Source: Caulobacter sp. FWC26 (lineage in GTDB: Bacteria > Pseudomonadota > Alphaproteobacteria > Caulobacterales > Caulobacteraceae). Taken from it: a DNA stretch of 64,000 bases. The stretch covers positions 3,264,001-3,328,000 of the forward strand of contig NZ_CP033875.1 of assembly GCF_002742645.2 (NCBI RefSeq), written 5' to 3'. Below, piece by piece: positions 32,401 to 58,005 of the stretch. The number at the start of each line of letters is the position of its first letter. Within the stretch, counting starts at the first letter, position 1. A model generated the notes under the pieces. The model saw only the letters and a list, made by a program, of their open reading frames with translations. It had not been told where the DNA came from and did no database searches. The position numbers and the translations under genes were made by a program.

Positions 32401-32475
<75 letters not shown>

Positions 32476-32524
32476 GCTATTCGCGAGATATGGTCTCATC
32501 CAGCCTGCCCGGAAACCGGGAGAA

Positions 32525-32599
<75 letters not shown>

Positions 32600-50220: not shown

Positions 50221-50290
50221 GTCAGGGCCTCCGGATCGAGTTGTTTGCAACACTGTTGCAAGCCATTGCGTCCGGTTTGGGGCTCCAAAC

Positions 50291-50305
50291 TTAACGCGCG
50301 GTTAA
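50291..50305. promoter_or_regulatory. perfect CtrA box between DUF1134 gene and lepA
   Basis: TTAA (50291-50294), CGCGCGG, TTAA (50302-50305): TTAA-N7-TTAA. It lies between divergent genes; the closest start is DUF1134 at 50220. Confidence 0.65.
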
Positions 50306-50382
50306 GCATAACCGCCGCTCACGCCCCCACCGCGACCGCAACGCCCCTCGCGAAGCAGCGCAAATGTGATATGCGCACGCGC

Positions 50383-52191
<1,809 letters not shown>

Positions 52192-52225
52192 TCGGGGCGG
52201 TTAGCGCTGGATTGTTGAGCTTGAA

Positions 52226-52260
52226 GCGCCCCCGCCGGGAGACTGGCGGGGGTGTTTTTG
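52226..52260 (+). terminator. Rho-independent terminator after lepA
   Basis: GCGCCCCCGCC (52226-52236) and GGCGGGGGTGT (52245-52255), two G-T pairs at the base, loop of eight, then TTTTTG. It ends lepA just before the accessory operon on the other strand. Confidence 0.85.
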
Positions 52261-52328: not shown

Positions 52329-54851
52329 TCACACCGGCACGGTGATCGGCGGCTTGATGGCAAGGCGGTTGCGTACTTGAGTATAGATTCCTGCCACGCC
52401 GGTCATCTTCAAGGTGACAACCACGGCATAGGGTGTCGGGTCGATCACGTCGTCGACCTGACGCTGAATGACGATGTCAAAGGTGGCGTCCTGGCCAAAC
52501 ACCGCCGCCTTGTCGCCCTCCCAACGGCGATGAGCGACCGTGCCATTATGGATCTGATTATAGTCAGGCTGGCGGCCGCCCGCCGTGACCGCAAGGGCGG
52601 CGGCCGACTCCTTCGGCTCAATCATCTTGATCTGCACGCCACGATACTTGGGGGCCCCGATACGCGGCGGCGCGAGCCAGGCGACGGTCACCGCTACCTC
52701 ATGAGGCGTGGCCTTGCCGACCATGGCGACGGGTAGCGGTACGCGCACGGTGTGGGCCTGATCGGAGTTAAGCCGGCCCACGCTCCAAAGCGTCGCCCGA
52801 TCCTCGGCGCAGTCTAGGATGACGTCGCCGTCGATCGCGCCAAACCCCAGGAAACGACGGACGTTGTCCTTCTGCTGGACGCTGAACTTGCCGCTGGCCG
52901 GCCCGAGGGTCTCGACAATGAGGTCGCGCGCTTCGGTCCACCGGGCCGAATGCACCAGCATGGCCTTGAGCAGAACCGCCCGATGGGCCGAGGGAATGTC
53001 TAGGAAATCGTCGTAGACGGCCTCAAGCGCCTCATGGGCCCGACAGGCCAAGCCGGTCACCTGGGCAGCCGCCACGCTAGTGCCGATTGAGCGGGCCAGC
53101 GGGGCTGCCGCAGGATTAGTTGCGGTCGGGGGCGCGGCGACGAGAATGCCGCCGAAAGTTCCAGCGTTCTTACCCATGGGCCGCAGCGCATGGCCCGCGC
53201 CCTTGGGCATCAGTCGGACGTGATGCCGTCCGCCGGGCGCAAGGATATCGGGTTTGACCGCGCCGCCGTGACCGGGACCGAGCGCGCTGGAAACGGTGGA
53301 TAAACCGGTCTGGCTCCAGACATCGAAGGTCGAGGCGGGCAAGGGTCCAACCGGCGCGTTGTCTTGATGCAGCGCTCCGACCGTGATGGCGTTAATCGAC
53401 TCGGCTGGCGCCAGGACACGGCGATAGGCCATGGCCGAACCGCTGGCCTTCAAGGCAAGTTTCGCGCGTTCGAGCGGCGCTAGGTCCTCGAAGGCGATCG
53501 TATTGACCTCGTCGTTCACGAGGTCGGTGCCGTGATTGCCGGCGCTGATCACGAAGAGGATGCCGTAGGCATGGGACAGATAGTCGACGACGCGGGCCCA
53601 GCCAGACATCTTGCCGGAGAAAGGCTTGTTGCGGTCGCCCAGTGAAGCGTTGACGATAATCACTCCGGGCGCCGTCGGATCGGGCCCGGACTTCATACGC
53701 ACGATGGCCTCGTGAAACAGGTCGGCAGGCAAGCGATCGGGAAAACGCTCGTCGTCATCGATCTGCGGTGGGGCGAACATTACGTTAACGAAATGGACGC
53801 GCCGCGTCAGCGGTGGCGATTGCGGCGCCAGAAGGTCGCCATGCACGACAGCGGACGCCATCGCCGTGCCGTGAAGGCGCGGTCCGACTGCCTGGGGCTC
53901 AAGACCGAAGGGATCCTCAATCGACAAACGTCCGGCCAACTGAGGGTGCAGCGCCAGCGGTACTGCGTCGAAGATCGCCGCGATCGGCGCGCCGTCCGGC
54001 AAGGGGGTCCCGCCATTGATGGTCCCGCCATCCTGGGCCTCGAAGGTGGTCAGATGCACGGCGCTTTGCGGTCGGATGTGCATAACTGCCTCGGAGGCTA
54101 CGATACCCTCGTAACCCCGCGCGAGGATCGCCTGGATTTCCGCGATCGGCACGTCGGCCAGCATGGCGTGGTAGCGCGCGCCGTCGATCCGGGTCGAGGA
54201 GATGACTACGCCGCCTCGGGCCACGACCGAGGCGGTTGCCTGCGCTTGAACGCCCTGCGCCTCAGCGCGATAGACCAGTTCCAGCTCGATTCTGACCAGA
54301 CCGCGGGCGTCGGCGCGTTGCTCGGCGAGCACGGCGCGATCCTCCAGAGTCAGGCGGTCTTCCGGCCCCCAAGCACGCAGATCCTTCATCTGCAGGAAGA
54401 GGTCGCGCCAAGGCGCGAAGCCTTGCGGCAGGGCTCGCCCGGCGGCGTGCTGACGCCACAGGCCGACCATCTGGGTCAGCGCTCTGGCGTCGGGGATCAT
54501 CAAGTAGACCGCCGGATCACGGTCGCCGTCCTGGGCTTCAAGCTCGTCAGCCCCGACGAACTCGAGGCCTGGAACCCTGGCCGCGGCGCGCATGAACCCG
54601 CTGACGTCCGCCGTTAGATCAAAGACCAGCAGGCGCTCGGGCGCGATGCCGGCGGGGTCGGCCCTGAGCTGCAGCGCGTTGGCGCCGGGCGTCAGTATTT
54701 GGGCTAGGCGCTGAAGACGTTGACCGGCCGGCTTCTGCAGCTGTTCAGCGGTCGGAATCTGCCTTGGGCGCGGGAACCCGATCCTTGTCACGCGCGCGCG
54801 ACCGGTTGGGTCGTCGAGTCTCAATAGCGGACGGTTCGGACGCTTCGCCAT
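52329..54851 (-). CDS. ietS: large subtilisin-like serine protease (S8), IetS-type
   Basis: 840 aa, no signal peptide, so cytoplasmic. N-terminal about 280 residues are a family-specific region (RPLLRLDDPTGRARVTRIGF). Then the S8 catalytic domain: Asp295 in AAIFDAVPL, His327 in RLHGTAMAS, oxyanion Asn439 in SAGNHGTD, Ser592 in SIGTSVAAAQVTG. The C-terminal 200 residues form a beta-rich domain. The protein is encoded just behind an AAA+ ATPase gene, with a 107-nt overlap. That pair matches IetAS, an anti-phage system of a subtilase and an ATPase. How the protease is triggered is not known to me. Confidence 0.85.
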   Translation of the reverse strand: MAKRPNRPLLRLDDPTGRARVTRIGFPRPRQIPTAEQLQKPAGQRLQRLAQILTPGANALQLRADPAGIAPERLLVFDLTADVSGFMRAAARVPGLEFVGADELEAQDGDRDPAVYLMIPDARALTQMVGLWRQHAAGRALPQGFAPWRDLFLQMKDLRAWGPEDRLTLEDRAVLAEQRADARGLVRIELELVYRAEAQGVQAQATASVVARGGVVISSTRIDGARYHAMLADVPIAEIQAILARGYEGIVASEAVMHIRPQSAVHLTTFEAQDGGTINGGTPLPDGAPIAAIFDAVPLALHPQLAGRLSIEDPFGLEPQAVGPRLHGTAMASAVVHGDLLAPQSPPLTRRVHFVNVMFAPPQIDDDERFPDRLPADLFHEAIVRMKSGPDPTAPGVIIVNASLGDRNKPFSGKMSGWARVVDYLSHAYGILFVISAGNHGTDLVNDEVNTIAFEDLAPLERAKLALKASGSAMAYRRVLAPAESINAITVGALHQDNAPVGPLPASTFDVWSQTGLSTVSSALGPGHGGAVKPDILAPGGRHHVRLMPKGAGHALRPMGKNAGTFGGILVAAPPTATNPAAAPLARSIGTSVAAAQVTGLACRAHEALEAVYDDFLDIPSAHRAVLLKAMLVHSARWTEARDLIVETLGPASGKFSVQQKDNVRRFLGFGAIDGDVILDCAEDRATLWSVGRLNSDQAHTVRVPLPVAMVGKATPHEVAVTVAWLAPPRIGAPKYRGVQIKMIEPKESAAALAVTAGGRQPDYNQIHNGTVAHRRWEGDKAAVFGQDATFDIVIQRQVDDVIDPTPYAVVVTLKMTGVAGIYTQVRNRLAIKPPITVPV

Positions 54852-55818
54852 GTCCCTCCGGCGTCACTCTGGACGCCCACAACGCCAGCTCGTCACTCAG
54901 GACCTGCCGAAGCGACTCACCACCCTGAGCGAGAATATGTCTGCGACGCACGTTTTGGCAGAACTCGGACACTTCGGCAAAGCTTACCGCACCCAGTTTT
55001 TGGGCGACCTTCTCCGCCGATAGGCCGGAGGGCTCGGGCCAAGAATCCATAAAACGAGACACCAGCACTGCTCGGCCGGCGGCGTCCGGCCTTGGCATTT
55101 CGAGCCGAAGCTGGAAGCGACGCCAAACCGCGCGGTCGAGTAACTCGGCGTGATTGGTCGCGGCGACGGCGACGACATAACTGGGCAGTTGATCTAGCTG
55201 CATGAGCAGGAAGGAGACGACGCGCTTGATTTCGCCGGTCTCGTGAACGTCGCCGCGCTCCTTACCGACGGCGTCAAACTCATCGAAGAACAGAACGCAC
55301 GGTATAGCGCGGGCATATTCGAACAGGCGCGCCATCCTGGCGTTAGTCTCGCCCAGATAGGCACCGACCAGGGCGTCGTAACGCACGGTCAACAGCGGTA
55401 AGGCAGTGGCCTGGGCGATCGCTTCGGCCAGCGAAGTCTTGCCGTTGCCCGGAGGACCAGACAGAAGGATTCGGTGACGCGGCTGCATGCCCTGCGCTCG
55501 CAACAGATCAGCCCGCAGCTGCTCTTGGATTAGTTGCTGGCTAAGCCGCTTGGCCGGCAATGGCAGGATCAGATCGCTTAGTTCGACCCGCGCCTCACTC
55601 TCGATCACGAAGTCGCGCCCGCCGGTGCTGCTGCGACGCAGATCCGCCGAATTGGTCACCGGCACCGACTGCAGGGCCCGCTCCAGTCGGTCCGCCAGCA
55701 CATGATGGCTGCGTGACTTCTCCTCGGCGACGATCGCCTCCACGGTGGTGGTCAGCATCGAGCGATCGCCCGCCGCGCCAGCCCGAACCAGAGATATCAG
55801 CAGATCGCTTCGTGCCAT
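54745..55818 (-). CDS. ietA: AAA+ ATPase, IetA-type, partner of subtilase
   Basis: 357 aa. AAA+ core: Walker A GPPGNGKTS (residues 121-129), a pore-loop-like region RYDALVGAYLGETNARMARL, Walker B CVLFFDEFDAVG (174-185), sensor 1 AATNH (Asn222), arginine fingers RAVWRRF (233-234). Before it, a helical N-terminal part with DLRRSSTGGRDFVIESEARV. The tail is basic (RRPNRSRARDKDR) and overlaps the start of the protease gene. ATPases of this sort are thought to sense infection or unfold substrate for the protease (inference). It is not adjacent to any phage or transposon gene here. Confidence 0.85.
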   Translation of the reverse strand: MARSDLLISLVRAGAAGDRSMLTTTVEAIVAEEKSRSHHVLADRLERALQSVPVTNSADLRRSSTGGRDFVIESEARVELSDLILPLPAKRLSQQLIQEQLRADLLRAQGMQPRHRILLSGPPGNGKTSLAEAIAQATALPLLTVRYDALVGAYLGETNARMARLFEYARAIPCVLFFDEFDAVGKERGDVHETGEIKRVVSFLLMQLDQLPSYVVAVAATNHAELLDRAVWRRFQLRLEMPRPDAAGRAVLVSRFMDSWPEPSGLSAEKVAQKLGAVSFAEVSEFCQNVRRRHILAQGGESLRQVLSDELALWASRVTPEGHGEASEPSAIETRRPNRSRARDKDRVPAPKADSDR

Positions 55819-56186: not shown

Positions 56187-57203
56187 ATGAGCAAGTCCCA
56201 TCCCGACGCCCCCGCCACCTGGTTCCGCCTCTCGGAGGCCTCGTGGGCCCAGATCGCCGAGGAGTACAAGAACGGCGCGACCGCCGCCGAGCTGGGGGCC
56301 AAGTGGAAGGTCTCGCCGACCAGCATCTATCGCCACGCCTGCAAGAACGGCTGGACCAAGAAGGCGCACAGCGATGCGGTGGCGCGCGAGCACGCGGCGG
56401 CCTTCGAGGCGCAGGCGGAGGCCGCGCGGCGGGCGGCGCTGGGCGGCGCGGGGGCGCTGCCGGGCGAGCTGTGGCTGACCGGCGATGAGGACGCCGACGC
56501 CGAAGCGCTTGACGCCTTCGATCCGGCCTTCGCCGCCGCGTCGGGTCGGGCGCCGCCCCCGCCTCCGCGGCCGCCCCCGCTGTCGACCGATCCGTCCGAC
56601 CTGAAGGCCGCGACGCTGGCGCGGCTGGCGGCGGCGATCCAGTCGGGGCGCGACCAGGAGGCGCTCAGGCTGGCCACCCCGGCCGACCGGCTGACGCGGC
56701 TGGCGACGGCCGACCAGGAGGGGCTGGGGTCGTTTCCCGGCGACGGGTCCAACGGCGATGAGCCCTATGACGCCGAGCGGGCGCGCCTTCTGATGACCGG
56801 CTTTGTCGACTGGCGGCCGTCGCGGGCCCAGGTCGAGCACGAGACGGCCTACATGTTCCGCTCGATCTACCTGATCGCCCTGGCCATGCTGGTGAGCCCC
56901 GACAGCGTGCCGGGCCTGTTCAAGCGGCGGGTCCGGCGCTTTCGCCGCGACTATCTGGGCGAGGACGATCCCGAGGCGTTGGAGGCCGCCGAGATCATCA
57001 CCGAGGCCCTGCTGCGCCAGCAAGAGGTGGTGGCCATGGACTTCACCGGCCCGACGCCACAGCCGGCCCGCAAGCTGCCGGCCCGCACCTGGCCGCCGCC
57101 GCGTCCGCCCTACCCCTCGCGCAAGGACCTGGCCAGGGAGGCCACGCCCCTGCCGCCGGCCGAGCCGCCGCGCGGGGCGGTGCGGTATGGGCGGCGGCGC
57201 TAG
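56187..57203 (+). CDS. hypothetical protein with N-terminal HTH and Pro-rich tail
   Basis: 338 aa. Residues about 12-55 (WFRLSEASWAQIAEEYKNGA, TAAELGAKWKVSPTSIYRHA) are a homeodomain-like helix-turn-helix of the kind at the start of phage terminase small subunits. A Pro-rich stretch (PPPPPRPPPLSTD) and a helical middle with RSIYLIALAMLVSPDSVPGL follow; the end is Pro/Arg-rich. No enzyme motif. It may be a DNA-binding protein; not a real terminase, since nothing phage-like is near. Confidence 0.65.
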   Translation: MSKSHPDAPATWFRLSEASWAQIAEEYKNGATAAELGAKWKVSPTSIYRHACKNGWTKKAHSDAVAREHAAAFEAQAEAARRAALGGAGALPGELWLTGDEDADAEALDAFDPAFAAASGRAPPPPPRPPPLSTDPSDLKAATLARLAAAIQSGRDQEALRLATPADRLTRLATADQEGLGSFPGDGSNGDEPYDAERARLLMTGFVDWRPSRAQVEHETAYMFRSIYLIALAMLVSPDSVPGLFKRRVRRFRRDYLGEDDPEALEAAEIITEALLRQQEVVAMDFTGPTPQPARKLPARTWPPPRPPYPSRKDLAREATPLPPAEPPRGAVRYGRRR

Positions 57204-57225: not shown

Positions 57226-58005
57226 TCACCCGAACGGCGGCTTGACCCGGTAGAAGCGCCCTTCGCCCAACAGGTCGTAGACGCGGATGACGCGGAAGGC
57301 GTCGGGCTGGGCCTGGGACAGGTCCTGCTCGGCGCTGGTCAGGGCGAACGGGGCGAACTCGCCGGCCAGGGTGGTCTTGACCACGATCAGGCGCGGCGTC
57401 TCGTCGAGCCCGAAGCCGATGACGTCGCAGCCGTCAGGATCTCCGCCGCGCGCCGGGCGGACACGGGCGCCGATGTCGGGACGGCCGTGGTCGGACAGGC
57501 GGCGGGCCTCGTGGGCGACGACGCTGGCGACGCCCAGGGCTCCCAGAAAGCGGTCTTCCTGCGCGCGCCGGCCCATGTCGAAGCGCTGCAGCACCTGCAT
57601 CAACCGCTCGCTCCTCGCCGCCGGCGGGGGCGGCGCGGTTTCGACCAGGGGCACAGCGTCGGGCGCGGCGAACAGGGCGTCGGGGCGTATGACGGCGGCC
57701 AGCAGGGCGGGCTTGGCGGCCAGCTGCTCCTCGACGGCGTCCAGCAGGGCGTCGTCATAGCTCCAGCGGGGCGGCTGGTCCTTCAGGATCGGCAGGCCGA
57801 TCAGCGACAGCACCGCCGAGATCTCGCCCTGCTTCCAGCTGATCGGGCCGTCGGCCTTGCCGGTGACGAAGCGCACGGTGCGGGCGTGGGCGGCGCGGTC
57901 GACGGGCTTGCCGGCCAGGGTCTTTTCCAGCTGGGCGACATAGTCGCCCACCACCACCGCGAGGTCCGCCCCCGTCCACTCACGCCCGACCGATTCCCCC
58001 GTCAT
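57226..58005 (-). CDS. DUF3883 protein with altered ExK motif
   Basis: 259 aa. The C-terminal part follows DUF3883: HEARRLSDHGRPDIGARVRP, GCDVIGFGLDETPRLIVVKT and FALTSAEQDLSQAQPDAFRV. DUF3883 normally reads I-E-V-K-T-T, a PD-(D/E)xK-type nuclease core; here Glu is Val (L-I-V-V-K-T), while the upstream Asp (GCD) remains. Thus a nuclease fold with possibly no activity. The N-terminal part is helical and includes KADGPISWKQGEISAVLSLI. It converges on the hypothetical gene at 56187. Confidence 0.72.
   Translation of the reverse strand: MTGESVGREWTGADLAVVVGDYVAQLEKTLAGKPVDRAAHARTVRFVTGKADGPISWKQGEISAVLSLIGLPILKDQPPRWSYDDALLDAVEEQLAAKPALLAAVIRPDALFAAPDAVPLVETAPPPPAARSERLMQVLQRFDMGRRAQEDRFLGALGVASVVAHEARRLSDHGRPDIGARVRPARGGDPDGCDVIGFGLDETPRLIVVKTTLAGEFAPFALTSAEQDLSQAQPDAFRVIRVYDLLGEGRFYRVKPPFG

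Follow-up and report, generated by a model that had tools for sequence, protein, structure and literature searches.

A candidate IetAS-type gene pair at a defence-exchange site behind lepA in Caulobacter sp. FWC26

We analysed a pair of genes, ietA and ietS, in a 64,000-nucleotide stretch of the Caulobacter sp. FWC26 genome (contig NZ_CP033875.1, positions 3,264,001 to 3,328,000 of the forward strand), hereafter the window. An earlier note, made from the sequence alone, had described an AAA+ ATPase and a large cytoplasmic subtilase in a tight operon here and proposed them as a candidate IetAS anti-phage system. The open reading frames and a motif check bear out both enzymes, their motifs and the D295/H327/S592 triad. 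The genes lie on one strand with a 107-nucleotide overlap, and both reading frames are intact between lepA and a gene for a protein of 338 amino acids. The features of the pair, in window coordinates, are as follows.

54745–55818, minus strand: ietA, AAA+ ATPase of 357 amino acids (open reading frame list, PADLOC, Pfam, motif check); Walker A at 55435–55458, Walker B at 55279–55293
52329–54851, minus strand: ietS, S8 subtilase of 840 amino acids, predicted cytoplasmic; triad codons D295 at 53967–53969, H327 at 53871–53873, S592 at 53076–53078
54745–54851, minus strand: overlap of the ietA 3' end and the ietS 5' end, 107 nucleotides, out of frame
54854–54859, minus strand: GGAGGG ahead of the ietS ATG
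54069–54635, minus strand: two ferredoxin-like domains of IetS (beta-alpha-beta-beta-alpha-beta), residues 73–160 and 185–261, at the subtilase prodomain position
52812–53993, minus strand: S8 catalytic domain of IetS, about residues 287–680
52365–52799, minus strand: C-terminal beta region of IetS, about residues 685–829

IetA carries GPPGNGKT at residue 121, LFFDE at 176, AATNH at 219 and RRF at 233, and Pfam places an AAA domain in IetA and Peptidase_S8 in IetS. The catalytic residues of IetS (D295, H327, N439 and S592) are invariant in all 36 rows of an alignment of close relatives, the window included, and in all 74 rows of a wider alignment. A simple hydropathy count found no hydrophobic signal or membrane stretch in either protein, in line with the cytoplasmic location claimed for the subtilase. 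The G+C content of the pair (0.651) is lower than that of the flanks (0.674 and 0.704), and a simple scan found no sigma-70-like promoter. IetA is similar to p97/CDC48-type unfoldases and proteasome-activating nucleotidases. This similarity, like the retained catalytic residues of IetS, would fit a two-part AAA+ protease for ordinary quality control, with IetA unfolding damaged host proteins for degradation by IetS, a reading to which we return with the distribution of the pair.

Profile searches place both proteins in the PADLOC models. IetA matches PDLC04232 with an E-value of 1.4e-140 (residues 1–322 on profile positions 1–324 of 330) and IetS matches PDLC04233 with 8.3e-249 (residues 1–835 on positions 1–849 of 855), values that exclude a chance match. 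The pair thus shows the features of PADLOC IetAS that were compared, namely an IetA match and an IetS match, adjacent on one strand, with ATPase motifs and triad intact. The corresponding NCBIfam models score far lower, at 230.3 bits for IteA (NF042959; cut-off 510) and 80.8 bits for IteS (NF042956; cut-off 900), the latter match being limited to IetS residues 156–638. Because these cut-offs are missed by far, the pair represents a distant branch. The proposed assignment therefore stands for the PADLOC models but does not extend to the NCBIfam ones, and we class the pair as IetAS in the PADLOC sense, the branch falling outside the equivalogs of NCBIfam. Our literature search found no phage-tested example of this branch.

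The named close homologues come from Caulobacteraceae, Brevundimonas among them. We took the best 79 of 126 loci from named genomes encoding a related IetS; by title, many are alphaproteobacterial, with Nitrospira, Gemmatimonadota and others also represented. An IetA match lies just upstream of IetS in 76 of these best 79 loci, and in two of the remaining three IetS sits at a contig end. This regular partnership argues against peptide maturation, in which IetS would process a small precursor in the manner of the PatA protease with IetA as a helper. Many subtilases match equally well. None of the neighbouring genes run through Pfam appears biosynthetic, a result that does not extend to small precursor genes, for which no search was made. 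We regard this explanation as scarcely credible. In a tree of 81 IetA rows the window sequence pairs with the copy from a second genome of the genus, G025 (support 100/93); several branches are implausibly long and the tree was otherwise unused.

For IetS, Pfam gives only Peptidase_S8 at E-values up to 0.01, with no match to an inhibitor or prodomain family (I9-type), and a sequence search against PDB chains returned no match at an E-value of 1. The absence of a fold match carries no weight here.

The overlap between the two genes was surveyed in 76 pairs. Among the 41 closer pairs, defined by an IetS at least 38% identical to that of the window, it measures 50–113 nucleotides in 40 and 194 nucleotides in the other. 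The 35 more distant pairs mostly overlap by 1–50 nucleotides or not at all, with five at 83–197 nucleotides. Codon positions were compared in 29 members whose overlaps reach about 85 nucleotides or more, the window and G025 included. In these, the start of IetS (PLLRLD and similar) is kept in the ietS frame, and variation in that frame within the overlap is 0.490, 0.412 and 0.656 at codon positions 1, 2 and 3. The third position is likewise the most variable outside the overlap, both in ietS (0.413 and 0.343 at positions 1 and 2 vs 0.683) and in the non-overlapping part of ietA (0.441, 0.325 and 0.673). The ietS frame is under constraint within the overlap, and the IetA tail there is variable by eye. 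A shorter ietS of 820 amino acids, as in database cluster P0001, was rejected: relatives retain the extended N-terminus in the ietS frame, and so the long start is taken as real and P0001 as cut short.

The pair is patchily distributed. Of 75 genomes of the genus, only the window genome and G025 encode a close IetS, and 11 have any match to the IetS model with an E-value no higher than 0.001; the idea of a core gene pair of the genus was rejected on these counts. In a sample of the family, 4 of 249 genomes have a close IetS, in one case broken across two frames. Identity between the G025 pair and that of the window is 92%. The G025 copy is on a contig of 265 kb that also carries a plasmid-type replication gene; the lepA gene of that genome is on the other contig. 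A relaxase search of G025 matched on contig C1 only and not on C2, so the plasmid claim for this copy is based on the replication gene and the contig size. Near it, at L066:17711–18643, is a frame that by eye resembles an IS3-type transposase. More widely, related IetS proteins are encoded on 96 plasmid records, of which 43 are predicted to be conjugative. A query coverage of at least 80% is reached in 60 of the 72,556 plasmid records, in no case with an identity of 60% or above. Related IetS proteins are absent from 50,697 phage records.

These observations bear on two alternatives. A quality-control protease fits poorly with a close form in just 2 of 75 genomes, with relatives on plasmids and with a site that holds defence genes instead in relatives (below), and we judge it very unlikely. 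The plasmid records and the plasmid-like contig of the G025 copy would suit a plasmid-addiction pair, or a conflict module that acts on plasmids or conjugation instead of phage, and one paper classes IetAS with toxin–antitoxin systems (PMC11878078). Against this, the IetAS family is described as anti-phage, and relatives carry anti-phage systems at the same site; the latter point is weak, since restriction systems also act on plasmids. We consider this alternative very unlikely as well.

The location of the pair is bounded as follows.

50245–52191, plus strand: lepA, left-hand anchor (start as mechanically listed; a later start at 50371 is better on codon use)
52223–52258, plus strand: hairpin of the lepA terminator (-31.9 kcal/mol, z -5.8), marking the left edge of the variable segment
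56074–56096, no strand: right edge of the variable segment, in which homology to five relatives with other cargo resumes
56187–57203, plus strand: right-hand anchor gene, 338 amino acids, no Pfam match

A simple terminator scan did not list the hairpin, though its folding energy confirms the earlier claim that lepA has a terminator of its own. No exact repeats of at least 9 bases, direct or inverted, were found between the two edges. A lepA match is present in 73 of the 75 genomes, G000 included; apart from G000, the flanking DNA was retrieved for all 72, and 64 of these flanks reach at least 3 kb past lepA. Thirty proteins were scanned with PADLOC, and other flanks were searched by tblastn with a selection of these proteins. 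Behind lepA, 17 of the 72 relatives carry Hachiman, DRT3, a different IetAS lineage, or restriction genes of type II, IIG or IV (G005, G007, G011, G019, G023, G026, G027, G039, G043, G044, G047, G053, G056, G063, G064, G069 and G073), a lower bound obtained without a random-site control. Within this count, the evidence for G027, G044 and G047 is 28–50% identity to Vsr or Dcm; for G053 and G056 it is an HNH endonuclease. G024 (a kinase) and G054 and G055 (candidate-model matches) were left out. The right-hand anchor is missing from the more distant flanks, and the claim there is therefore one of nearness to lepA, with starts within about 5 kb. For four families that are rare in the genus (close IetS, 2; HamA, 3; Drt3b, 2; the IetS model PDLC02199, 4), 4 of 11 occurrences lie behind lepA, each family having been chosen for its copy there.

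An empty site, with lepA beside the 338-amino-acid anchor and no cargo, was not seen in the 72 flanks. Twelve of them have a match to the anchor, in some cases a short or weak one, and the closest of these matches lies about 2.9 kb beyond lepA. Closest to empty are G061 and G070, where a single called gene, of about 180 amino acids, separates lepA from a NOV_C gene. In the window, a NOV_C-like gene by the site (57226–58005) matches the PADLOC candidate PDC-S36 (3.5e-66), and 32 of the 72 flanks contain a match to it. Two flanks hold genes with no PADLOC match: in G023 an HD-CE and HATPase protein of 901 amino acids with G+C near 0.5 (L058:400–3105), and in G038 genes for 815 and 216 amino acids with lower G+C (L091:8565–11664). 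Judged from these comparisons, the lepA 3' flank appears to be a defence hotspot and a busy exchange site, not the 'quiet chromosomal site' of the earlier note. The same comparison favours the note's idea of an acquired module: gain and loss are seen, the flank varies among relatives and often carries other defence genes, and the pair does not recur at this site throughout the genus, the only other close copy among the 75 genomes being away from lepA. Judged by titles and the openings of abstracts, nothing in the open-licence literature searched describes a defence hotspot at lepA.

The pair sits where relatives carry other anti-phage systems, which makes an acquired defence module very probable. 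We hold with considerable confidence that it is an IetAS-type anti-phage module of a known kind; patchy presence, a copy on a plasmid-like contig and an exchange site with other defence systems in relatives support this, and its action against phage is predicted from the sequences. In an infected cell, a hexamer of IetA may recognise a phage-induced state; one paper names phage replication proteins as activators of IetAS elsewhere (PMC10732053). IetS would beforehand be restrained, with its two ferredoxin-like domains occupying the prodomain position. With ATP, IetA would then activate IetS or pass substrates to it, and IetS would cut phage or host proteins, halting the infection and probably costing the cell. 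The overlap may couple translation and keep both subunits in step. Two papers (2023 and 2025; one is PMC11878078) call the IetAS mechanism unknown.

A reading that joins these elements is offered tentatively, and we think it rather doubtful as a whole. IetS of this branch might be a cytoplasmic zymogen shut by its ferredoxin-like domains, which IetA would pull off on a phage signal by an ATP-driven action, unlike secreted subtilases, which become free through self-cleavage. The long overlap, in which the basic tail of IetA is read in an alternate frame of the ietS start, might tie tail and protease start together in evolution, and the lepA flank might be a genus-wide slot where modules are swapped by recombination between the flanking genes.

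A second, divergent AAA+/subtilase pair lies elsewhere in the host genome (C3, 2071575–2075190; L068:7576–11191). Its ATPase matches the IetA model at 3.5e-68, and its subtilase scores only 96 bits to an IetS model but 6.7e-46 to Pfam S8. Type I restriction genes and a match to Septu PtuA (1.8e-175) lie nearby. The window also contains two tandem tRNA-Gly(GCC) genes at 32401–32599.

The system itself is of a known kind; what is new is the exchange of defence genes at this site, the conserved overlap and the two ferredoxin-like domains ahead of the protease. The first two may interest specialists, and the evidence from the site is stronger than the sequence of the window alone could show. With its intact, overlapping operon at a natural site that holds other systems in relatives, this branch offers clean material for work on the IetAS mechanism. 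The lepA flank is a place to look for new defence genes, the 815-amino-acid protein of G038 and the HD-CE/HATPase protein of G023 being candidates.

Among known systems, the secreted enzymes ProN-Tk-SP (3afg), a prodomain subtilase, and KP-43 (1wmd), a subtilase with a C-terminal beta domain, differ from IetS, which lacks a signal, carries two ferredoxin-like domains and is encoded together with an AAA+ partner. NCBIfam IteA/IteS comprise the same two enzymes with detectable homology, at scores far under the cut-offs. The G011 IetAS (PDLC02195/PDLC02199) is likewise an AAA+/S8 pair, with lepA on one side and the same anchor gene on the other, but in the opposite orientation and with IetA 42% and IetS 25% identical over the matched parts; from these differences we infer an independent arrival. 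No feature compared here sets the pair apart from PADLOC IetAS (PDLC04232/PDLC04233), to which both proteins are nearly full-length matches, with the AAA+ gene upstream of the subtilase gene.
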